A stretch of DNA of 64,000 bases, taken from NCBI GenBank assembly GCA_020052415.1, contig JAGVPB010000010.1, positions 1 through 64,000 on the forward strand. The letters are read 5' to 3'. The notes beneath the pieces were generated by a model, which did no database searches, had not been told where the DNA came from, and saw only the letters and a program-made list of their open reading frames with translations. Made by a program: the position numbers and the translations under genes. Source of the stretch: Bacteroidales bacterium (GTDB taxonomy: Bacteria > Bacteroidota > Bacteroidia > Bacteroidales > JAADJA01). Shown here piece after piece: positions 17,279 to 27,345 of the stretch (position 1 is its first letter; each line of letters opens with the position of its first letter).

Positions 17279-18028
17279 ATGAAAACGTTAAGTTTATTTC
17301 TTTTCTCCCTTGTTTTTATGAATAGCTCCAGTTTAATTTCGCAAACTCAGGACACTATTTTATTGAAATCCGGAACTAAAATCATAGCTGATGTAACTGC
17401 GATCAGTGACACTGAAGTCAGGTACAAAGAACTGTCCAGTCCCGATGGACCGGAGTATATACTGAGTAAGAATTCAATTGAAAAAATAAACTTCAGCAGT
17501 GGCGACGTTAAAGTTTTTTCGTTAAAAAGAATAGACCAGCTCTATGGTCAAAACATAATATCTTACCATATATTTGATGTTATTTACCAGGATTTTACTA
17601 TTGCTTATGAATTTATTACCGATGGAGGAATGACGGGAATCAGGGTACCACTAACATTTGGTTTTAATACGGAAAATGACAGAGAGGGACCATTTAGCTT
17701 CAGGAACCTGGTTTCGACAGGTATGGGTTTTAATATTTACCTTCTAGGCCAAAGAAGAGCTTCCTATTTTATGGGTCCGGAATTAGATTTCGGACTCGGA
17801 AGGCGTTTTAATTACGACTATTATAATTTTGAGGAACATTTCGATAAAACGGATTTTATTTATGGAAGATTACTCATAAACAATGGAATATCAATCAGTC
17901 CGGTAAGTAATTTCAGGTTATCTGCCATGTTGGGTATCGGGATCAGGTATTTTGACCTCGCAGAATCACAGGAGGGTGGAGTAAAGTCATCAGCTTATTT
18001 TACCTTTTCGATGGGCTACCGGTTTTAA
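17279..18028 (+). CDS. Secreted hypothetical protein, probable outer-membrane barrel
   Basis: A 249-residue protein starting MKTLSLFLFSLVFM, with a signal peptide cleaved near SQ/TQD. After a short N-terminal domain with DTILLKSGTKIIADVTAISDTEVRYKE (a pattern seen in Bacteroidota proteins that read as a small beta domain), residues 90-249 alternate polar and aromatic residues and end in the aromatic FTFSMGYRF, as expected of a small beta barrel. ATG 17279 is preferred to 17198, which lies on the nqrF stop and adds a charged stretch. It sits between nqrF and apbE; whether it has any link to Na+-NQR is unknown. Confidence 0.65.
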   Translation: MKTLSLFLFSLVFMNSSSLISQTQDTILLKSGTKIIADVTAISDTEVRYKELSSPDGPEYILSKNSIEKINFSSGDVKVFSLKRIDQLYGQNIISYHIFDVIYQDFTIAYEFITDGGMTGIRVPLTFGFNTENDREGPFSFRNLVSTGMGFNIYLLGQRRASYFMGPELDFGLGRRFNYDYYNFEEHFDKTDFIYGRLLINNGISISPVSNFRLSAMLGIGIRYFDLAESQEGGVKSSAYFTFSMGYRF

Positions 18029-18092
18029 CTAATTCAGTCATTTCATAAAATTTTATTGCTTTCCCTGCTTTCAGGCCAGCCTTTCATTTTCA

Positions 18093-18100
18093 TACTTTTG
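18093..18100 (+). promoter_or_regulatory. -7 box (TACTTTTG) for apbE
   Basis: TACTTTTG is an exact TAnnTTTG match. It ends only two bases before ATG 18103, so transcription should begin at or after that codon; this argues for ATG 18118 as the real apbE start. Confidence 0.5.
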
Positions 18101-18117
18101 CAATGAAAAAATATATT

Positions 18118-19134
18118 ATGAAACGGCTTAGCCTAAAAATTTTGTTGTCTTTTTCTCCTTTCTTCCTTATTTGTTGCCACACCGAAAATCCGGTAATGGT
18201 AAAATTTACAGGCGAAACACAGGGTACTTACTATGCAATCACTTACTTCGAAAATGATGGCATAAATTATCAGAAAGAGATTGATTCCCTGCTTGCAGTT
18301 TTCGACTATTCAGTGTCAATGTGGCTTCCCGGTTCAATCATTTCAAAAATCAACAGCGAAAGTTCGAATGTTGAACCTGATGAAATTTTTAAATCTTTAT
18401 TCCTGAAGTCAAAAGATGTTTATGAGAAATCAGCCGGTGCATTCGATCCAACGGTCGGCCCTCTTGTAAATGCCTGGGGATTCGGATTTACCGACCGTAT
18501 GAAAGTGAATCAGCATATAGTTGACAGCCTGCTGCCGCTTATTGGCTTTGATAAAATAAAACTTGAGAATAACAGGATTATCAAGTTTGATCCTCGTGTA
18601 CAATTTGATTTTAACGCGATAGCACAGGGCTATGCCGTTGATCTGATCGGTAAATATCTGTCGGGTAAGGGAATAATAAATTTTCTTATTGATATTGGTG
18701 GTGAGGTTCTTGCGTCTGGTAATAAACCCGGGGATGAATTTTGGCAGGTTGGTATCGAAAGGCCCAAAGATAATGCCTCCTACGGTGAAGGACTTACGGC
18801 CATTGTCAACCTTAAGAACAAAGCCCTTTCTACTTCTGGAAGCTACCGCAAATTTTTCGAAGAAAACGGCAACCGTTACTCACATACCATTGATCCGAAA
18901 ACAGGTTATCCGGTGAACCATTCTGTGCTTAGCGTATCTGTATTAGCTTCGGATTGCTGTGCGGCAGATGCGTGGGCTACGGTTTTTATGGTAATGGGAC
19001 TTGAAAGGTCAATGGAATTTTTAAATCAGCAGGATAAACTTGAGGCTTATTTTATTCACAGTGGAAAAAGCGGAATCCTTGAAACCTATTACACTCCCGG
19101 CTTTAAAGATATTTTGGTTGAAGAATTGAAATGA
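18118..19134 (+). CDS. apbE: FAD:protein FMN transferase, flavin loading of Na+-NQR
   Basis: A 338-residue lipoprotein that transfers FMN from FAD onto threonine of SGxT motifs in NqrB and NqrC. The signal peptide ends at a lipobox (FLICC), anchoring the enzyme on the outer face of the inner membrane. Conserved elements: TQGTYYAITY, AFDPTVGPLVNAWGFG, VQFDFNAIAQGYAVDLIG, INFLIDIGGEVLASG, LSTSGSYRKFFEENG and the late SVLASDCCAADAWATV metal-binding region. Placement right after the nqr operon fits the substrate. ATG 18118 is chosen over 18103 on promoter grounds; the difference is five residues. Confidence 0.93.
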   Translation: MKRLSLKILLSFSPFFLICCHTENPVMVKFTGETQGTYYAITYFENDGINYQKEIDSLLAVFDYSVSMWLPGSIISKINSESSNVEPDEIFKSLFLKSKDVYEKSAGAFDPTVGPLVNAWGFGFTDRMKVNQHIVDSLLPLIGFDKIKLENNRIIKFDPRVQFDFNAIAQGYAVDLIGKYLSGKGIINFLIDIGGEVLASGNKPGDEFWQVGIERPKDNASYGEGLTAIVNLKNKALSTSGSYRKFFEENGNRYSHTIDPKTGYPVNHSVLSVSVLASDCCAADAWATVFMVMGLERSMEFLNQQDKLEAYFIHSGKSGILETYYTPGFKDILVEELK

Positions 19135-19180
19135 TTTTAAATTATTAATACTCTGTTAATTTCAGCAAATAAAATATGGA

Positions 19181-19393
19181 TCATCTGCCGGAAGTTCCAT
19201 GATGTTCTTCATAATATGCACATTGATCCGGTTCATCACTGTTACATACACAACCGACTTTTTCTCCATCCGAAAATTCTATTGAACTACAGGTTTTGGT
19301 AAAATGTCCGTCCTTTTGAACCAGCATTTTAATTGCAATGCCTCCAACAGCAAGGCCAACGAGAATTATTGCAGCAATTATAACAACAAGCAT
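19181..19393 (-). CDS. Four-cysteine single-pass membrane protein, NqrM-like candidate
   Basis: A 70-residue protein: one N-terminal membrane helix (residues 2-23) and a short soluble tail with cysteines at 35, 48, 50 and 58 (FTKTCSSIEF, KVGCVCNSDEPDQC). NqrM (DUF539) is a small membrane protein with an N-terminal helix and a cysteine cluster, needed to build the NqrD/E iron centre. The size, topology, cysteine number and place beside apbE and nqr agree with that role; the sequence itself is divergent, so the assignment is inference. It is convergent with apbE. Confidence 0.6.
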   Translation of the reverse strand: MLVVIIAAIILVGLAVGGIAIKMLVQKDGHFTKTCSSIEFSDGEKVGCVCNSDEPDQCAYYEEHHGTSGR

Positions 19394-19464
19394 AATGTTT
19401 TAAATTTACTCCATTTAGAAACGCAAAGATATTCATATTGTTTCCGGGTATCCGGTTTTCATTA

Positions 19465-20235
19465 TCATTTTGTCTTCTGCCGTCTTTTAAATTCAGCGCA
19501 AATAACAGCCGTTGCCAGGGATGCATTTAATGATTCGGCTGAAAAAGATTTACTTGCCGAGTAGTCAGGTATCCTGATTTTATGGGTTATGAAGGGAAGC
19601 AGTTCTTTAGAAATTCCATGCGACTCGCTGCCGATAATAATAATTCCTGAATTCCCAGATTCAACCGAATAAAGATTGTTCCCATCAAGCATTGCTCCAT
19701 AAGTGTCAATCATAGAAGTCATTTGTATAATATATTGTTCAAGATCAGTATAATAAACAGGTACTCTGAAAATTGATCCGGCGGTTGCCTGAACTACTTT
19801 AGGATTAAAAATATCTACACAATTTTCTGAGCAAATGATATGCTGAATTCCAAACCAGTCTGCTGTTCGGATAATTGTACCCAAATTACCAGGATCGCTG
19901 ATTCCATCCAGCATTAAAACAAAGTTAACGATTTCCGGTATTTTAGTTGGTACGTCAGGGATTTGAACAATAGCCAATACCTGGTTCGGCGTTTTTTGAC
20001 TGCTTATCCTGGCTAATTCGTTTTCCTGGACTTCAATCAAATTAATATGATGAGGAATTTTACCATCATTCATTTTTATCCATTCAGCAGTTGCGTATAT
20101 TTCCAATACTTTAAACGGGCTCTTTAAAAGCTCCCCGATAATTTTTGGACCTTCAGCAATAAATTTCCCATACCGATTTCTAAATTTTGCCGACTTAAGA
20201 GCGTTAATATGACGAACTTTTTCCTTTGAAATCAT
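19465..20235 (-). CDS. SpoU/TrmH-family RNA 2'-O-methyltransferase
   Basis: A 256-residue enzyme that methylates ribose 2'-OH in tRNA or rRNA with S-adenosylmethionine. It has an N-terminal substrate-binding domain (KFRNRYGKFIAEGPKIIGELL) and a trefoil-knot SPOUT domain with the three motifs: LDGISDPGNLGTIIRTADWFG, IIIGSESHGIS and IPDYSASKSFSAESLNASLATAV. The last reads PDYSASKSFSAESLN where relatives usually have IPM/G...ESLNVS. The exact RNA site cannot be read from sequence. A second member of the family is at 46058. Confidence 0.85.
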   Translation of the reverse strand: MISKEKVRHINALKSAKFRNRYGKFIAEGPKIIGELLKSPFKVLEIYATAEWIKMNDGKIPHHINLIEVQENELARISSQKTPNQVLAIVQIPDVPTKIPEIVNFVLMLDGISDPGNLGTIIRTADWFGIQHIICSENCVDIFNPKVVQATAGSIFRVPVYYTDLEQYIIQMTSMIDTYGAMLDGNNLYSVESGNSGIIIIGSESHGISKELLPFITHKIRIPDYSASKSFSAESLNASLATAVICAEFKRRQKTK

Positions 20236-20254
20236 AGCCGGATTTTTAAAAATG

Positions 20255-20262
20255 CAAAAATA
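20255..20262 (-). promoter_or_regulatory. -7 box (TATTTTTG) for the SpoU methyltransferase
   Basis: The reverse strand reads TATTTTTG 20 bp before ATG 20235, an exact TAnnTTTG match. Confidence 0.45.
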
Positions 20263-20298
20263 GAAAAATTAACTTGTACTAAATGAGCAATTTATAAA

Positions 20299-20350
20299 TT
20301 TCATATAGTGGTTTCCCACTATTTTTTTTTTTAGTGGTTTCCCACTATAT
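20299..20350 (+). promoter_or_regulatory. Double palindrome with T11 spacer, site 1
   Basis: Dyad 1 is ATAGTGG (20305-20311) / CCACTAT (20316-20322); a run of 11 T covers 20322-20332; dyad 2 is TAGTGG (20332-20337) / CCACTA (20342-20347). Dyad centres are 26 bp apart. The site lies 46 bp before ATG 20394. Site 2 at 24282 has the same arms, the same T11 and the same spacing but different loop bases, which points to selection on the arms. It could be an operator for tandem dimers of the adjacent NarL-type regulator, or an RNA attenuator (hairpin plus T tract, with an alternative pairing). Confidence 0.75.
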
Positions 20351-20393
20351 AATTTCGAAAAATTGTATATATTATTGTATTGAAATATTGACG

Positions 20394-20708
20394 ATGAAAA
20401 AGGTTAATTTCATAAAGAGTATAAAGTTGCTGAAGGATGAGACCGAATCCGGTTTACTCGCAGTAAAGGCGACAGGTATTGCTGAATTAAAAAATCTTAT
20501 AGCTCCTGTACTTATTTCATCTAAAAATTATGATAATCCTCCGGCTGATGGGATATATGAACTCGATTTTGTTCTTGATTCATCGGATAAGGATTACACT
20601 TCACTTGAACTGGAAGTTGATGTAGTTTTTCGAATAAAGAATCTCCCTTCATGGGTAAAAGGATTTAAAGTGAATGCAAAAGAAAATTCAGATATAGAGT
20701 TGATTTAA
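20394..20708 (+). CDS. Small hypothetical protein preceded by double-palindrome site 1
   Basis: A 104-residue soluble protein without signal peptide. The first 30 residues look helical (KKVNFIKSIKLLKDETESGLLAVKATGIAELKN), the rest alternates like a small beta domain (GIYELDFVLDSS, SLELEVDVVFRIKNLPSWVKGFKVNA). ATG 20394 is preferred to a start at 20334, which lies inside the palindrome. The leader shares ATATTGAC..TGATGAAAAA-type bases with that of the small gene at 24400, so the two are likely co-regulated. No family recognised. Confidence 0.6.
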   Translation: MKKVNFIKSIKLLKDETESGLLAVKATGIAELKNLIAPVLISSKNYDNPPADGIYELDFVLDSSDKDYTSLELEVDVVFRIKNLPSWVKGFKVNAKENSDIELI

Positions 20709-20727
20709 GAAGGAAATAAAATGCCAG

Positions 20728-20761
20728 CCGGCCGGTATGTTAAAGACTACATACCGGCCGG
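20728..20761. repeat. GC-rich hairpin with 13-bp perfect stem
   Basis: CCGGCCGGTATGT (20728-20740) pairs perfectly with 20749-20761 across an 8-nt loop, 20 bp after the stop of the 104-residue gene. There is no T tract after it on the plus strand, so it may be an RNA-stability element or a factor-assisted terminator rather than a plain intrinsic terminator. Confidence 0.7.
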
Positions 20762-20918
20762 AAAAACCAAGGTATTAATAGAAAGACAATATCACTAATT
20801 TCTGAAAAAGCTTTGAGAAAAATATTTTATTTTTTATGAATTCGAAACCCATTTATAAATATTATCTATCTTTATGAAAGTGAAAAATAAAAATTATCAA
20901 TTTTAAAACTTTTCATTC

Positions 20919-21233
20919 ATGAACAACTACAAGCCCTATTCTTACCTGTATAAAAAAACTTCTGAACCCGCTCAATTGCGTTCGTGCTTTGTAGCTAAGA
21001 TTCCGATCTACATGAATCTGTCGGATCCGGCAATCAGTACAAATAATCATGTGACAACAATCACATACTCCGTAGTCAGCGACCAAAGTAAAATCCGCGA
21101 GTGGCAATTCGAGGATGAAAATGTACTCAGTTGGGATGGACTTGAACATTCAGTTGAAATAAAAATTGGAAGCGGGAGCGGAAGTACGGGAGGAACTTCA
21201 GATAATAGTTCTGGCAAGGCTGAAATTGAGTAA
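20919..21233 (+). CDS. Small hypothetical protein with Gly/Ser tail, upstream of the TPR kinase
   Basis: A 104-residue protein with no signal peptide and no membrane segment. Residues 1-80 look like a small beta-rich domain (AKIPIYMNLSDPAI, TTITYSVVSDQSKIREWQFEDENVLSWDG); residues 83-104 are a flexible Gly/Ser/Thr tail ending KAEIE. It ends 17 bp before the histidine kinase start, so the two are probably co-transcribed. No family recognised; a role as ligand, partner or target of the kinase is possible but unsupported. Confidence 0.6.
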   Translation: MNNYKPYSYLYKKTSEPAQLRSCFVAKIPIYMNLSDPAISTNNHVTTITYSVVSDQSKIREWQFEDENVLSWDGLEHSVEIKIGSGSGSTGGTSDNSSGKAEIE

Positions 21234-21250
21234 TTAATAGATTGTTTTCA

Positions 21251-23395
21251 ATGAATCGCTATATGACACCCGCATTGGTACCAATCAGGACAACTGTTTT
21301 GACTATTATCGCTATGATTTTCGCAATGGATTATAGCTCTTCTTGTTTACTGGGTCAGTCCTTAGCTGAGATTGATTCCATTGAAAAGGTAATCATTACA
21401 CAGGATAATGATACCAACAAAATTAATAATCTTGTCATTGTGACTAAAGGTTATATATATAGAGACTTGAACAAAGTAGAATCTCTTATTGATGACATAT
21501 TACTTTTATCACAAAATCTTAAATTTTATCCTGGAATTGCCGATTACTACTATTTAAAAAGCATATTATACAAGAATAATTTAAATTATGATTCATCATT
21601 AATTTTACTCAATAACGCTCTCGCGTTGATTGATTCGGTAAATGACTTTAGGCGCCTTGCGAATTATTACCGCCTTTATGCTATGACACTCCATAAGCAA
21701 GGGTTAAATATTACTGCATCTGTCTATTATAAGAGAAGCCTTATGTTATATGAAGACCTTAATGATCAGGAAGGGATTACCAAAACCTATAATTCGCTTG
21801 GTATCATATATGACGATGCCATGAAATATGATTCAGCTTTGCATTATTACTTCAAATCATTATCACTTGCAGAAAAAAATATGGATTTCCAAAATCAGAT
21901 GCCTCCATGCATTAATATCGGCAGAATTTTTAATGACATGAAAGATGCTGAAAAAGCTATCGAATTTTTCAATAAATGTCTTGATATCAGCACCAGGCAG
22001 AAAAACATTTCCTTTATCGGACAATCGTACAATAATCTTGGTATGGTCTTTCACAATTTAAATAAATTTGAAGAAGCCCTGAAAAACTATGGGATAGCTA
22101 TTGAAAATTTTAATTCCATTGATGCCATTCGGGATAAAGCAACTACTTTAATAAATATGGGTAATGTTTACCGGGCATTAGGAGATAAAACAAATGCATT
22201 AAAAAAATACCATGAAAGTCTGGCAATTTATAAATCACATGGTATAATACACGGAATAATAGATGCTGAGATCCATATTGCACTCTATTATGAGGATATA
22301 GGAAATTATACCAGGACTCTTCAAATCTATGACAGTTGTTTAACTCTCGCTAAGGAATCTAATTATCTTGAAATCATGCCAATTCTGTATAATAATATTT
22401 ATAAAGACTACGAACTTGCAGGCAATTGGTCACAAGCTTTTCATTATCAGTCATTGCATACCGCCCTAAAAGATTCAATCTATACACTTGAGAAGGAACG
22501 TATAATTAATGATCTTGAGCTGAATTATGAAAAGGAAAAAAATGAAGCCCAAATACTTTTGCTTCAAAATGATAATCTTCAAAAAGACATTGCATTAAAG
22601 AAAAGGACGATCCAGAGAAACATTTACATTTTCATTGCCCTTATTATTGTCATTTCCGGATTGTTGTCCTTTGGTCTGTTTTATACCCGCTCCAGGAAAA
22701 ATAAAATTATCATGGAGCAAAAACTGAGGCAGTTGGAAGATGAAAAGAAATTACTTGCCGCACAAAGTATTGTAGAGGGCCAGGAACAAGAGCGAAAACG
22801 CATCGCCTACGATTTGCATGATGGCATTGGAATATTGCTGTCATCAGCACGATTGCAATTCTCCAGTATTATTGAAAAAGTTCCTAAGCACAAAGAACTA
22901 CTCGATAGGGCAAATAAGCTGATAGAGCAGGCTGCAACTGATATCCGGAAAATTTCACATAATATGATGCCAGGTATCCTAACTAAGTTTGGGCTACTAG
23001 AGGCTGCTGAAAGCCTGTTTGATCAGTTTGAGGATAGTCCGGATATATCAGCCACTGTAAATATTACCGGCAATCCTGTTCGCTTAACTGAAAACACTGA
23101 AATAATGCTTTACAGGATAGTACAGGAATTGCTCAACAACACTATAAAACATGCATCTGCCCAAAATATAGTATTGCATTTTCACTTTACGGACAAGCTG
23201 CAAATCCAGTATTCAGATGATGGGCGAGGCTTTAATGTTGATGAGAAAATGGGTTCAGGCACATTTGGTTTAAAAAGCATTCAGTCAAGAGTAAACTTTC
23301 TTAGCGGTGAATTGACTTTTGAATCAAAACCCGGTAAAGGATTTACCTGCTTTATTCATGTGCCAATTCAAAATCAAATAGCAGAAGTAAATTGA
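21251..23395 (+). CDS. TPR-domain sensor histidine kinase (HisKA_3 type)
   Basis: A 714-residue kinase. An N-terminal signal/anchor segment (about residues 10-38) is followed by around eight TPR units (residues 60-420) predicted to be periplasmic, a membrane helix (IYIFIALIIVISGLLSFGLF), a coiled coil, the HisKA_3 dimerisation helix with His523 in RKRIAYDLHDGIGILLS, and a HATPase domain (MLYRIVQELLNNTIKHA, YSDDGRGF, GTFGLKSIQSRV). It should phosphorylate the NarL-type regulator 57 bp downstream. The sensed signal is presumably a peptide or protein bound by the TPR part; that is inference. ATG 21251 is chosen over TTG 21242. Confidence 0.88.
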   Translation: MNRYMTPALVPIRTTVLTIIAMIFAMDYSSSCLLGQSLAEIDSIEKVIITQDNDTNKINNLVIVTKGYIYRDLNKVESLIDDILLLSQNLKFYPGIADYYYLKSILYKNNLNYDSSLILLNNALALIDSVNDFRRLANYYRLYAMTLHKQGLNITASVYYKRSLMLYEDLNDQEGITKTYNSLGIIYDDAMKYDSALHYYFKSLSLAEKNMDFQNQMPPCINIGRIFNDMKDAEKAIEFFNKCLDISTRQKNISFIGQSYNNLGMVFHNLNKFEEALKNYGIAIENFNSIDAIRDKATTLINMGNVYRALGDKTNALKKYHESLAIYKSHGIIHGIIDAEIHIALYYEDIGNYTRTLQIYDSCLTLAKESNYLEIMPILYNNIYKDYELAGNWSQAFHYQSLHTALKDSIYTLEKERIINDLELNYEKEKNEAQILLLQNDNLQKDIALKKRTIQRNIYIFIALIIVISGLLSFGLFYTRSRKNKIIMEQKLRQLEDEKKLLAAQSIVEGQEQERKRIAYDLHDGIGILLSSARLQFSSIIEKVPKHKELLDRANKLIEQAATDIRKISHNMMPGILTKFGLLEAAESLFDQFEDSPDISATVNITGNPVRLTENTEIMLYRIVQELLNNTIKHASAQNIVLHFHFTDKLQIQYSDDGRGFNVDEKMGSGTFGLKSIQSRVNFLSGELTFESKPGKGFTCFIHVPIQNQIAEVN

Positions 23396-23452
23396 ACTAA
23401 ATTTGATTAAGTGAATATAAAGATTTTCTGATCATTTAAGTATGAGCGAAAT

Positions 23453-24088
23453 ATGATAAAAATTTTAGTTGCCGACGATCATCAGCTTCTTATTGACGGA
23501 ATAAAAAGCACACTTGAGGATGTGGAAGATATTAAAATAATTGCCAAAGCAAATAATGGTTTTGAGGTAATTAAAATATTAGAAACAAAAAAAGCAGATA
23601 TTGTATTGATGGACATCAATATGCCTTATATGGATGGACTTGAATGTACAAAAATTATTAACCAGAAATTTCCTGATATTAAAGTAATTGCTTTAACACA
23701 GTATGATGAGAAACGATTTGTAAAACGAATGATAAAAAACGGTGCTTCCGGATATTTATTAAAGGATGCAAGCAAGGCGGAATTATTGAAAGCTATCAGA
23801 GATGTTAATGCGGGTAAGAAATATTTTAGTCCCAAGCTTTCAGTTAAGTTTTTGGAAGACCACTATCAAACACCAAGAACAAATCCGCTTTTTCCACATT
23901 TAACCGAGCGTGAGCAGCAGGTATTAAATTTAATTTGTAAAGAATTTTCCAGTAATGAAATATCAGAACAACTAAATATCAGTTATAATACCGTAGAAAA
24001 TCATCGCGCAAGTTTGATGGAAAAATCTGAAACAAAAAACACAGCAGGGCTTGTACGATGGGCAGTCGAAAATGAATTGATTGATTAA
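23453..24088 (+). CDS. NarL/LuxR-family response regulator
   Basis: A 211-residue DNA-binding regulator. The receiver domain (1-120) has the acidic pair in VADDHQ, phospho-acceptor Asp54 in VLMDINMP, Thr in IALTQYD and Lys in GYLLKDAS. The HTH (about 147-205) reads LTEREQQVLNLICKEFSSNEISEQLNISYNTVENH, the standard LuxR-type helix-turn-helix. Its partner is the TPR kinase just upstream. NarL-type dimers bind inverted repeats, so the double palindromes at 20299 and 24282, on either side of this locus, are natural candidates for its targets. Confidence 0.9.
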   Translation: MIKILVADDHQLLIDGIKSTLEDVEDIKIIAKANNGFEVIKILETKKADIVLMDINMPYMDGLECTKIINQKFPDIKVIALTQYDEKRFVKRMIKNGASGYLLKDASKAELLKAIRDVNAGKKYFSPKLSVKFLEDHYQTPRTNPLFPHLTEREQQVLNLICKEFSSNEISEQLNISYNTVENHRASLMEKSETKNTAGLVRWAVENELID

Positions 24089-24281
24089 CTTCCCCTGTTT
24101 TTCTTACTTCCATATTAATTTCTTTCTTTTAAATTATCCAAGCCTGGAGACACTCACTAATTTTAAATTTTGTCGGGTATTTTCATCATTTTAAGCAGAA
24201 ATTTTTAAGCCATTTTTAAGACTGAAAAAAAAATAATTGTAAAATGAATTTTTAGAACTCTAATAGTAAGGATGTTATAAT
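24089..24281. other. Intergenic stretch before site 2
   Basis: AT-rich sequence between the response regulator and the second palindrome site. I see no terminator hairpin, repeat or reading frame worth calling. Confidence 0.4.
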
Positions 24282-24333
24282 TTTCATATAGTGGAAAACC
24301 ACTATTTTTTTTTTTAGTGGTTTTCCACTATAT
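24282..24333 (+). promoter_or_regulatory. Double palindrome with T11 spacer, site 2
   Basis: Dyad 1 is ATAGTGG (24288-24294) / CCACTAT (24299-24305) with loop AAAA; 11 T cover 24305-24315; dyad 2 is TAGTGG (24315-24320) / CCACTA (24325-24330) with loop TTTT. Centres are 26 bp apart, as in site 1. The flanks TTTCATATAGTGG before and CACTATATAATTT after are also shared. It lies 67 bp before ATG 24400. Confidence 0.75.
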
Positions 24334-24399
24334 AATTTTCAATATGATGTATTAATTTTAAGCAAGAAAATTATATAATAAACAACAATATTGACTGTG

Positions 24400-24558
24400 A
24401 TGAAAAAAATCTTTAAAAGTTCAACTTTACTGATCATCATATTTATGATGATGTTAGCTCTGATGGTTGTCCTGATAATGAGGTTGCAAATCCGTGAGAA
24501 CACAAGTGAAAAACTAAATGAACAATCAGATCAGTTTTTTAAGCTCCAAAAACGCTGA
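24400..24558 (+). CDS. 52-residue single-pass membrane protein behind site 2
   Basis: The short gene encodes a basic N-terminus (MKKIFKSS), one long membrane helix (about residues 9-27, rich in Met, Leu, Ile and Val) and a charged polar tail (RLQIRENTSEKLNEQSDQFF) ending KR. It has its own palindrome site and a leader resembling that of the gene at 20394, and a strong terminator follows at 24663, so it looks like a complete monocistronic unit. Small membrane proteins of this shape often modulate kinases or transporters; here the TPR kinase is a plausible partner, by inference only. Confidence 0.6.
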   Translation: MKKIFKSSTLLIIIFMMMLALMVVLIMRLQIRENTSEKLNEQSDQFFKLQKR

Positions 24559-24662
24559 CAGATAAAAATACCCCTGTGAGATTTAAGAAAAATCCTACCC
24601 ATATATACAATTTCTTCACTAAATCTCAATTTTAATCCTACCTGACAATTTCGACCTGAAAC

Positions 24663-24693
24663 AAAAAAACCCGGAGATTTTCCGGGTTTTTTT
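24663..24693. terminator. Bidirectional intrinsic terminator
   Basis: CCCGGA (24670-24675) pairs with TCCGGG (24681-24686), with seven A before and seven T after. It can end transcription of the small membrane protein gene on the plus strand and of the rpsF-rpsR-rplI operon on the minus strand. Confidence 0.88.
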
Positions 24694-24709
24694 AATTTTA
24701 GTAAATCCT

Positions 24710-25159
24710 TTATTCTGCAAAGACTTCAAAATTTATTACAACTTTAATTTCCTTGTGAAGATGAATTTCAGCAGTATATGTCCCGAGTTCTTTTATATGC
24801 TCGCCATCAACAATGATCCGTTTTCTTTCAACGTCATAATTGTATTGACTTTTTATTGCCTCAGCTATCTGGATATTGTTGACTGAGCCATAAATTTTAC
24901 CCGATTCGGCAGCTTTAGCTCCGATCCTTACGGTAATTCCGTTCAGAGCTTTAGCTAAAGTTTCTGCTTCCTTCCTGATCTTTTGATCTTTAAAAGATTT
25001 TTGTTTTAAATTTTCCGAAAGTATTTTTTTGTTAGTTTCAGTTGCAACTATAGCCATGCCCTTTGGAATTAAAAAATTCCGTGCGTAACCGGCTTTAACT
25101 TTAACAACCTCATTGGAATACCCAAGACTGGGAATATCTTGCTTTAAAATAATTTCCAT
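24710..25159 (-). CDS. rplI: 50S ribosomal protein L9
   Basis: A 149-residue ribosomal protein that binds 23S rRNA near the L1 stalk base and helps hold the reading frame. The N-terminal domain MEIILKQDIPSLGYSNEVVKVKAGYARNFLIPKGMA is diagnostic; a long helix and the C-terminal domain (GSVNNIQIAEAI) follow. Last gene of rpsF-rpsR-rplI. Unusually for this phylum it has an exact AGGAGG five bases before the ATG, overlapping the rpsR stop. Confidence 0.97.
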   Translation of the reverse strand: MEIILKQDIPSLGYSNEVVKVKAGYARNFLIPKGMAIVATETNKKILSENLKQKSFKDQKIRKEAETLAKALNGITVRIGAKAAESGKIYGSVNNIQIAEAIKSQYNYDVERKRIIVDGEHIKELGTYTAEIHLHKEIKVVINFEVFAE

Positions 25160-25164
25160 TTTAA

Positions 25165-25170
25165 CCTCCT
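25165..25170 (-). promoter_or_regulatory. Exact Shine-Dalgarno sequence of rplI
   Basis: The reverse strand reads TAAGGAGGTTAAAATG: the TAA is the rpsR stop, AGGAGG follows, then five bases to the rplI ATG. Most genes in the window lack such a site. Confidence 0.8.
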
Positions 25171-25439
25171 TATTTTAATAAATCTCCAACATAGGGCATG
25201 ATTGCGATGTGCCTGGCCCGTTTAATCGCCTGTGATACTTTTTTCTGGTATTTGGTCGAAGTTCCGGTAATTCTGCGGGGCAATATTCTGCCCTGCTCAT
25301 TTACAAACTTCAACAAAAAGTTAGCATCCTTATAGTCAATATATTTGATTCTGCTCTTTCTGAACCTGCAGTATTTTTTCTTTTTAGTATCAACTGCTAT
25401 TGGGGTTAAATACTTAATATCTGAATTTGCCTGAGCCAT
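25170..25439 (-). CDS. rpsR: 30S ribosomal protein S18
   Basis: An 89-residue 30S platform protein that pairs with S6. Family core: [47 protein letters not shown] is recognisable in pieces ([33 protein letters not shown]). In Bacteroidota S18, S6 and S21 together cover the anti-Shine-Dalgarno end of 16S rRNA (established for Flavobacterium johnsoniae). Middle gene of the operon. Confidence 0.97.
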
Positions 25440-25463
25440 TTTCTGAAATTTTTTAATTAATGA

Positions 25464-25814
25464 TTATTCTTCTGATTTTTCTTCTTTGACTTTTTTCCTT
25501 TTCTTTTCATTGTAAGCAATTGCGTGCTTATCAAGCTTCACTGTAAGAAAACGCATGATACGTTCATCACGTTTAAAGGTCACTTCAAAGTCTCTGATCA
25601 CTGATGGATCAGCTTTGTACTCGATGAGGTTATAAAATCCTGTGGATTTTTTGTGTATGGGGTAGGCAAATTTTCGCATGCCCCAACAATCATCGAAAAT
25701 GATTTCAGCCCCCTTATTAATTAAATAATCTCGAAATTTTTTTACCGTTTCCTTCATCTGTTCATCAGACAAAACGGGAGTCATAATGAAAACGGTTTCA
25801 TACTGGTTTAACAT
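25464..25814 (-). CDS. rpsF: 30S ribosomal protein S6
   Basis: A 116-residue platform protein of ferredoxin-like fold. NQYETVFIMTPVLSD at the N-terminus, WGMRKFAYPIHKKSTGFYNLIEY and FKRDERIMRFLTVKLDKHA are typical; the tail is lysine and glutamate rich. First gene of rpsF-rpsR-rplI, 24 bp before rpsR, with a -7 box 47 bp upstream. Confidence 0.97.
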   Translation of the reverse strand: MLNQYETVFIMTPVLSDEQMKETVKKFRDYLINKGAEIIFDDCWGMRKFAYPIHKKSTGFYNLIEYKADPSVIRDFEVTFKRDERIMRFLTVKLDKHAIAYNEKKRKKVKEEKSEE

Positions 25815-25860
25815 AATTTAATTTTAAATTTATAATAAAAATGCTATTTAAAAAGGTGGG

Positions 25861-25868
25861 CAAAAGTA
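25861..25868 (-). promoter_or_regulatory. -7 box (TACTTTTG) for rpsF-rpsR-rplI
   Basis: The reverse strand reads TACTTTTG, an exact TAnnTTTG match 47 bp before the rpsF start. Confidence 0.5.
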
Positions 25869-25918
25869 GATATAATTTTAAAATAAAAAAAGCTAATTTA
25901 CATGTTTTTAAGAATTTA

Positions 25919-26455
25919 TTACTGCTCCCTGAATAAACTGAAATTTACATTACCATATTTTCGGTGATCAAAGCAATAAGTTTGAGCTGAAAAATCAGTA
26001 TTCCTGCTATGCTCAATAATTAACCAGCCGTCAGGCTTCAGAATCTTTCGGTTAAAAATTATTACCGGTAAATCTGCTACACCTTCCATATCGTAAGGGG
26101 GATCTGCATAGATCATATCCCATTTTTTTTCAGTGTGAATTAAAAACGACTTATAGTCGCTGCGGATAACAAAAAGATTTTTGTAGTTCAATTTTTCAGC
26201 AGTTTGTTTTATAAAATTCGTACAACTTGTGTTGATATCAATAGCTAATACGGATTTTGCCTCTCTGGAAATAAACTCATAAGAGATATTTCCAGTTCCG
26301 GCAAACAGATCAAGTACTTCCAATTCCTTAAAATCGAAATGGTTTGCAAGGATATTAAACAAGCCTTCCTTTGCAAAATCTGTAGTAGGACGAACCGGCA
26401 AATTTCCCGGAGCTGTAATTTTTCGGCCCTTGTTTTTACCGCTTATGATTCGCAC
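25919..26455 (-). CDS. rsmD: 16S rRNA (guanine-966 N2)-methyltransferase
   Basis: A 178-residue SAM-dependent methyltransferase acting on 16S rRNA in the assembling 30S subunit. Markers are MRIISGKNKGRKI, RPTTDFAKEGLFNIL, the SAM-binding VLDLFAGTGNISYEFISRGA-like segment (here FISREAKSVLAID) and the catalytic motif YADPPYDM. Overlaps the upstream DUF3822 gene by 13 bases, an arrangement common in this phylum. Confidence 0.93.
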   Translation of the reverse strand: MRIISGKNKGRKITAPGNLPVRPTTDFAKEGLFNILANHFDFKELEVLDLFAGTGNISYEFISREAKSVLAIDINTSCTNFIKQTAEKLNYKNLFVIRSDYKSFLIHTEKKWDMIYADPPYDMEGVADLPVIIFNRKILKPDGWLIIEHSRNTDFSAQTYCFDHRKYGNVNFSLFREQ

Positions 26456-27345
26456 AATGGTAAATGAAGAAGGTTAAAAAAGTAATGGGATGGAATGTCA
26501 CTGAATAAATAGCTGTACGAAAATCCGGCAGGTTTCGGCTGAAAACTTACATTTCGAACGTACTTGTAAATGGTGTCAAAAATCAGTGAGTTTTTTTCTA
26601 TTATTCCTGAAAATATGATTTCAATTTCTTCAGGATTTAGTTTCAATTGGTCCATGACATAAATTACATAATAAATAAAATCCTCCTTCGACAGATAATT
26701 GAAAGTGTTAAAATACAGCAGGCTTCTTCCGTCAAGAATGACAATGTCAAGATAGGATTTTCGAACATTGATAAAAATTCTTTTTTGGTTCACTGAGTTT
26801 TTATACGTGACCAGCAAATTATCTATAAAAATCCCGGCATGACTATAGAATTTATGGCCAGGAAATAATTCTTCAAGATCTTTCTTCAGAACTTTGGGTA
26901 CGAGATAAAGGTTATAGGCATCCAGATTCTTTATCTTGTCGCTCAGTGTATCATGATCATCAGATTGGGTAAAACTGAATTTTGAAAAACTCATTTTTTC
27001 CGACTCATCATACATAGGTTCTGGTATTAGTGATGAATTAGTACTTTCAAAAAGGATGTAAACAGATTTAAATTGATGATTTGTTGCAAAATGATCAGAA
27101 AAAAAATGTTTTAGAAGAGAATAAATATCCGGATTTAGTTCAGGGTTATCAAATTCGACATGTTCAATGGAAAGAAATTTATTGTTTTCAGTATTAAAAG
27201 TAGATAACGACAAACCCTCCATGGATATCTGGAGGAATAAATTCAGTTGTGTAAAATCGGCTTGCTTTAAAGCCTCATCATATTTTTTTATTAATGGAAT
27301 TATTTGCCCATACATTTCAAAAACAGGATTACTCCCAGTTTCCAT
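26443..27345 (-). CDS. DUF3822-family protein
   Basis: A 300-residue cytoplasmic protein conserved across Bacteroidota next to rsmD. Markers include LNLFLQISMEGLSL, FSHFF-like region SLLKHFFSDHF, HAGIFIDNLL, IFINVRKSYLDIVILDGRSLLYFNTFNY (read in two parts) and DQLKLNPEEIEIIFSG. The fold is reminiscent of ASKHA/actin-like proteins (PilM-like), which I infer from the strand pattern IFINVRKSYLDIVIL and LLYFNTF. Function unknown. It overlaps its upstream neighbour by 17 bases and rsmD by 13, so the three are one transcript. Confidence 0.8.
   Translation of the reverse strand: METGSNPVFEMYGQIIPLIKKYDEALKQADFTQLNLFLQISMEGLSLSTFNTENNKFLSIEHVEFDNPELNPDIYSLLKHFFSDHFATNHQFKSVYILFESTNSSLIPEPMYDESEKMSFSKFSFTQSDDHDTLSDKIKNLDAYNLYLVPKVLKKDLEELFPGHKFYSHAGIFIDNLLVTYKNSVNQKRIFINVRKSYLDIVILDGRSLLYFNTFNYLSKEDFIYYVIYVMDQLKLNPEEIEIIFSGIIEKNSLIFDTIYKYVRNVSFQPKPAGFSYSYLFSDIPSHYFFNLLHLPLCES

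Follow-up and report, generated by a model that had tools for sequence, protein, structure and literature searches.

The question raised by this locus is what is served by two closely matched double palindromes that bracket the genes for a tetratricopeptide repeat (TPR) histidine kinase and a NarL-type response regulator in a 64,000-nucleotide stretch of DNA (the window) from a Bacteroidales bacterium (contig JAGVPB010000010.1 of assembly GCA_020052415.1). The first element is referred to as P1 and the second as P2, and window positions are used throughout. In the initial annotation of this DNA, the pair was proposed to be either a tandem operator for the regulator or a structure acting as RNA. 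From the comparison of sequences described below, each element is most probably (roughly 85%) a tandem DNA operator, consisting of two dimer sites at a promoter, which would be bound in all likelihood by the neighboring NarL-type regulator, the presumed substrate of the TPR kinase encoded in the same operon.

Each element in the window is composed of two 17-bp units, TAGTGG-N4-CCACTAT, which are separated by a 9-bp T spacer, for a spacing of 26 bp (Table 1). The coordinates given in the initial annotation (20299–20350 and 24282–24333), together with the arms, the T11 run, the 26-bp centre spacing, the flanks and the loop bases, were all reproduced. P1 is a direct repeat of two palindromes; P2, because its loops AAAA and TTTT are complementary, is in addition one long inverted repeat and folds as RNA at −27.3 kcal/mol. 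Exact copies of TAGTGG-N4-CCACTA are present in the window at four sites, all inside P1 and P2, and matches with two or fewer mismatches number five, against 1.00 ± 1.02 expected (2 of 100 shuffles reach five). In the whole genome of 4.67 Mb (G000; G-numbers stand for genomes and C-numbers for contigs), the exact motif occurs at 10 places and its reversed control at two. The ten sites form five pairs with a spacing of 26–27 bp, that is, P1, P2 and one element each on contigs C4, C9 and C43. The C4 and C43 elements precede two paralogous operons, in each of which an FG-GAP-repeat protein is encoded together with a large protein bearing a type IX sorting tail; the large proteins had been taken by eye as caspase-like, an assignment that was dropped since Pfam gives the sorting tail only.

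The strict pair was absent from 16 congeners, which at first suggested a private repeat, but this was overturned by diverged orthologous versions. Pairs such as TAGTGGTATTCTGCCAT, TAATGGTTTTCTGCTAT, CAGTGGTTTTCTGCCAT and TAGTAGAATTCTGCCAT, among others, are located in the orthologous intergenic regions of congeners, again with two units 26 bp apart and a T-rich spacer, and in the congeners inspected the locus is flanked by the SpoU methyltransferase gene and rplI-rpsR-rpsF. The scan of the collection for the strict pair gave 35 stretches, mostly tandem arrays or unrelated palindromes as judged by eye and none with a comparable T-run spacer; the spacers of stretches L044 and L057 are A/T-rich. 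The notion of conserved arms with drifting loops holds only inside this genome; across the genus the arms drift as well and it is the geometry that stays constant. The genus set includes 17 genomes, this one among them, and 15 of these carry an ortholog of the regulator. P1 was identified in 11 of the 15 (G000, G001, G002, G003, G005, G007, G008, G009, G010, G015 and G016) and P2 in 13 (G000, G001, G002, G003, G005, G008, G009, G010, G011, G013, G014, G015 and G016), the contigs of G006 and G007 stopping at the regulator.

For analysis of the geometry, a total of 38 elements were catalogued: five from this genome, 24 of the 25 matches to a relaxed pattern, and nine found by eye in orthologous regions. 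The remaining relaxed match (G003:C69), with a spacing 6 bp shorter and running into a transporter-like frame, was left out before counting. The elements of the set have in common a pair of dyad units (about TRGYRG-N4-CYRCYA) with a spacing of 26 bp and, usually, a T-rich spacer. The left half of the proximal unit fits TRGYRG at five or six of six positions in all 38 elements, and the right half fits CYRCYA in 32. A box resembling TAnnTTTG (five or six of six positions) follows 21 bp past the proximal unit in 31 of the 38 elements, against five at most for any other offset between 0 and 49. By place, the box at offset 21 was found for 9 of 11 P1, 9 of 12 P2 and 13 of 15 other elements, one of these others (G005_Q) having later been recognised as the P1 element of G005. 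A profile of 44 positions that ends before the −7 box was then made from 34 elements (without G011, G013, G014 and G062), and its application to the 17 genomes brought up 28 new sites at E < 1e-4, of which 16 carry the box at offset 21 (other offsets from 10 to 31, four at most). In both samples, therefore, the element holds a fixed position relative to the promoter, as measured by the offset of the box. The leader word ATATTGAC, noted in the initial annotation as shared by both leaders, is indeed present at both in the window, but it is no general feature: within 60 bases 3′ of the element it was found for 1 of the 38, P1 itself, the P2 copy lying slightly farther.

In the passages of PMC7366714 on the primary sigma factor of Bacteroides, TAnnTTTG at −7 is the consensus. 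Relative to a start site predicted from the sequence, the dyad centres would lie near −42 and −68, and a pair at such positions of a promoter points to an activator operator and not to RNA. Like Bacteroidota primary-sigma promoters as described in those passages, most elements have a box matching TAnnTTTG at five or six of six positions; unlike plain promoters of this kind, the operator sits where the −33 element would be (PMC7366714).

The link with the neighboring regulator is supported by several lines of comparison. The regulator combines a receiver domain with a GerE/LuxR-type helix-turn-helix (Response_reg, 99.5 bits; GerE, 57.9 bits), as in activators of the NarL/FixJ type, and the inverted-repeat sites suit a dimer. 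Profile matches (E ≤ 0.1) were detected in all 15 genus genomes with a regulator ortholog and in neither of the two without (G004 and G012, with listed completeness of 90% and 82%). The orthologs, sought among 28–94 first-look candidates per genome, are 56–62% identical; the best relative in G004 is 44% identical, and G012 has none at E ≤ 1e-40. Within the order, 149 genomes were sampled, and matches with E ≤ 1e-5 were limited to exactly the three genomes with ORF1, the first gene after P1, namely G000, G001 and G062; in G062, which belongs to another family, the element precedes ORF1 and the regulator gene adjoins. When the sample was widened to 393 genomes, matches were obtained in six (G000, G001, G002, G062, G171 and G282), and under the stricter filters of this search the congeners G006 and G011 gave no match. 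In G005 (L234, G005:C276 3163–3861), the kinase is reduced to 232 residues without TPR repeats and both ORF1 and ORF2 are missing; since the regulator and both elements are kept there, the regulator is indicated as the partner.

Furthermore, P1 and P2 of the same genome resemble each other more than do elements of different genomes, with a mean unit similarity of 0.877 within genomes against 0.754 between them. Such likeness was equalled by 4 of 40,320 permutations for eight genomes, and in a reduced set of six genomes, with one of each sister pair removed, the observed pairing stood alone among 720 (the better of two orientations was used for each unit pair, and G005 and G015 were left out). 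Differences in the motif are accompanied by differences in the recognition helix: at column 181, ten relatives and G005 have H, this genome has N, and G011, G013 and G014 have Y, and at column 185 this genome has N where the others have T, S or G. Such positions of the helix contact bases in NarL. The tandem operator proposed in the initial annotation is thus favored by the constant distance to the −7 box, its return at this locus as well as at scattered promoters of congeners, the match between P1 and P2, and a presence that follows the regulator, which would probably be the protein bound. Motif copies placed at random, or at the ends of transcripts with no link to the regulator, would have spoken against this proposal and were not seen in the related genomes.

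A number of observations weigh against this assignment. A good −7 box at offset 21 is lacking in 7 of the 38 catalogued and 12 of the 28 profile-found elements; these 12 are mostly weaker, partial matches, with G002:C82 and G015:C195 as good matches that reach 4 of 6 box positions. Elements without the box at offset 21 include those of C4 and C43 in this genome, where it lies at offset 22, and in 22 of the 38 elements the box ends in A and not G. The P1 spot is without an element in G011 and G014 and shows none clearly in G006 (G013 left out), the profile matches of G011, G013 and G014 are weak (E 0.008–0.01), and G171 and G282 carry the site with no regulator within the 14-kb stretches read. 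The elements and genomes are, in addition, related by descent, and the counts are not independent of each other.

In the mechanism proposed for the operator, the TPR kinase would phosphorylate the NarL-type regulator encoded in the same operon, and regulator dimers, in a manner expected to depend on phosphorylation, would bind both dyads, 26 bp or about 2.5 helical turns apart. The proximal dyad would overlap the −33 region and contact or recruit RNA polymerase in a class II-like activation, at a promoter predicted to have the Bacteroidota −7 box and mostly no evident −33 element. The targets, presumably activated rather than repressed, would include the regulator's own operon from P1 (ORF1, ORF2, kinase and regulator), implying probable autoregulation, the small membrane protein from P2, and a handful of other promoters. 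A close parallel in layout is found in E. coli: at the ogt promoter, NarL acts as an activator at two tandem sites, −44.5 and −77.5, and in a derivative activation is achieved from −67.5, according to the passages of PMC7419079 on this promoter. As described there, a NarL-family regulator uses two inverted-repeat dimer sites, the lower near −35 and the upper a few turns above, but the half-sites differ (here TRGYRG, separated by 4 bp; at ogt elements of 7 bases, separated by 2 bp) and so does the spacing of the sites, 26 bp here against 33 at ogt (PMC7419079). With 6-bp arms and a 4-bp gap, the elements fall outside the 7-2-7 definition of the E. coli NarL site. Also unlike ogt, the promoters here have a Bacteroidota −7 box and the regulator a TPR kinase as partner, and its binding is predicted by comparison.

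The same arrangement could be a tandem operator for another regulator, either CRP/FNR-like or a NarL-type paralog, with the neighboring regulator merely as one of its targets. The size of the dyads suits other dimeric regulators too, the C9 element precedes the gene for a sigma-54-activator response regulator, and the C4 element lies directly 3′ of a paralogous NarL-type regulator gene. The presence of the site, however, tracks the orthologous regulator and not its paralogs, G004 having relatives at 44% identity and no site, and in the genomes inspected no DNA-binding protein other than the NarL-type regulator was read at the conserved locus. Another regulator is accordingly considered unlikely.

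Even less probable is the second possibility of the initial annotation, that the elements work as RNA hairpins, either intrinsic terminators or leader regulators. Of 200 shuffles, none folds as well as P1 or P2 (z −7.7 and −11.9), and a terminator scan flags the first palindrome and T-run of each as terminator-like; the P1 element of G003, however, hardly folds (z −1.8), and no Rfam family reaches its gathering score in window 18000–27000. The dyad pairs covary, with a score of 0.228 that none of 500 shuffles attained, yet double-sided changes occur no more often than in shuffles, and covariation of the dyad would be shown by an inverted-repeat protein site as well. The main ground for rejecting RNA is that the promoter box follows at a fixed distance, which places the element upstream of the transcript. 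The stems are short, with three G-C pairs each, the spacer is an A-run instead of a T-run in 4 of the 38 elements, and P1 is located between divergent genes, where no terminator for the plus strand is expected. In G011, G013 and G014, the units of P2 are inverted and extended to a long perfect GC-rich inverted repeat followed by T5, which may have a double role as operator and terminator. A second copy of this GC-rich repeat exists elsewhere in G013 and G014, with an TATCTTTG box downstream.

A dispersed mobile repeat of the repetitive extragenic palindrome (REP) or miniature inverted-repeat transposable element (MITE) type, or else an invertible promoter, is hardly credible. In favor of it are the presence of a few copies per genome and the 244 bp that C4 and C43 have in common around the element at 87% identity; but this stretch accompanies paralogous downstream genes, the other copies share the element and promoter only, and the copies of this genome, five in number, are tied to −7 boxes. 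Across the genus, P1 and P2 keep their orthologous places. Both have the same orientation, each ahead of its own box, so that no inversion would follow from recombination between the two. The stretch 3′ of the paralogous regulator at C4 (C4:64794–65037) recurs beside another paralog (C2:72824–72904), and the C43 promoter region carries the same stretch; the three copies look like traces of segmental duplication of regulator ends.

The features of the locus are summarized in Table 1. The TPR kinase and regulator lie between the elements as annotated initially, accompanied there by two 104-residue proteins and not one. Family searches with ORF1, ORF2 and the 52-residue protein gave nothing convincing, and the predicted structure of ORF1 was too poor for use (mean predicted local distance difference test score 55.6). 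A strong hairpin resembling an intrinsic terminator, possibly for both strands, is located at 24663–24693, between the gene for the 52-residue protein and the rplI operon.

Table 1. Elements and genes of the kinase–regulator locus, in window positions
Feature	Position	Strand	Remarks
SpoU-type rRNA methyltransferase	19465..20235	-	divergent from the gene on the P1 side
P1 distal dyad unit TAGTGGTTTCCCACTAT	20306..20322	+	predicted centre about −68; sequence, genome pairs, orthologous elements
P1 spacer, T-rich, 9 bp	20323..20331	+	sequence, orthologous elements
P1 proximal dyad unit TAGTGGTTTCCCACTAT	20332..20348	+	predicted centre about −42; sequence, orthologous elements
P1 −7 box TATTATTG	20370..20377	+	5/6 to TAnnTTTG, 21 bp past proximal unit
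ORF1 (open reading frame 1), 104 residues, no family	20394..20708	+	first gene after P1; orthologs in congeners
ORF2, 104 residues, no family	20919..21233	+	variable in congeners
TPR histidine kinase	21242..23395	+	domains TPR, HisKA_3, HATPase_c
NarL-type response regulator	23453..24088	+	Response_reg and GerE; proposed operator binder
P2 distal dyad unit TAGTGGAAAACCACTAT	24289..24305	+	sequence, genome pairs
P2 spacer, T-rich, 9 bp	24306..24314	+	sequence, orthologous elements
P2 proximal dyad unit TAGTGGTTTTCCACTAT	24315..24331	+	sequence, genome pairs
P2 −7 box TAATTTTA	24353..24360	+	5/6 to TAnnTTTG, 21 bp past proximal unit
52-residue protein, one hydrophobic segment	24400..24558	+	after P2; small membrane proteins at same place in congeners

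In congeners, the locus is modular, with one to three TPR kinases followed by a single regulator (L132, G003:C162 2263–11053; L133, G015:C194 1241–7057; L134, L135 and L137). Each of these kinases adjoins a different small protein of 100–115 residues, 20–50% identical to ORF2 by alignment, and the modules of kinase and small protein look like swappable sensing cassettes. The gene for a small membrane protein recurs 3′ of P2. In G010 (L084), copies of a short tandem repeat containing GAGCTTGTCGAAGTG lie between the regulator and the P2 element.

Among the genes behind the dispersed elements of congeners is porX. In Porphyromonas gingivalis, the PorX/PorY-SigP system controls the type IX secretion system (T9SS), with porX acting on the sigP and por promoters, according to the passages on PorX/PorY in PMC7712824 and PMC8265659; here, porX orthologs are among the proposed targets in congeners, and control of porX by a TPR kinase/NarL-type pair is absent from those passages. 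PorX (NF052313, 815–836 bits) was identified in 13 of the 17 genomes, and in five of the 13 (G001, G002, G003, G008 and G010) an element lies 327–454 bp before the gene. The matrix scores of these five are 52–62, whereas 260 shuffled sequences reached −3.8 at most; the elements of G001 and G010 had helped to build the matrix, those of the other three had not. G009 has an inverted variant of the element with a −7 box before porX. No element was found before porX in this genome (G000), G004, G005, G006, G011 and G015, nor in G012 within the 366 bp of upstream sequence covered, and no tRNA was found between operator and porX. On G015:C152 (L136, 4219–6713), a papain-like and then a clostripain-like gene form one operon behind an element, and a second element 3 kb on precedes a small membrane protein gene. 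The element of G002:C107 precedes a protein with a T9SS sorting domain, and those of G003:C107 and G015:C120 precede thioredoxin-like proteins; several other target genes have no recognised family or are cut by the stretch fetched.

In the open-access literature, no paper was found that gives a binding site for a TPR kinase/NarL-type pair, or that describes this operator or control of porX by such a pair, which does not prove its absence from print. TPR kinase/NarL-type pairs are plentiful in the genus, and one of them is herewith given a concrete operator, a promoter geometry and a list of targets, all as proposed above. Tentatively, the locus may be a hitherto unrecognized controller of protein secretion, placed a layer higher than PorX/PorY, in which the TPR kinase/NarL-type pair, in many cases accompanied by extra kinases that each adjoin a small beta-rich protein, would determine by way of this tandem operator how strongly porX, T9SS cargo and cysteine proteases are expressed, and in which operator and recognition helix would have quickly co-evolved within one genus. 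The elements further provide a series of natural variants in which operator and recognition helix vary together, as well as a lead towards PorX and type IX secretion.

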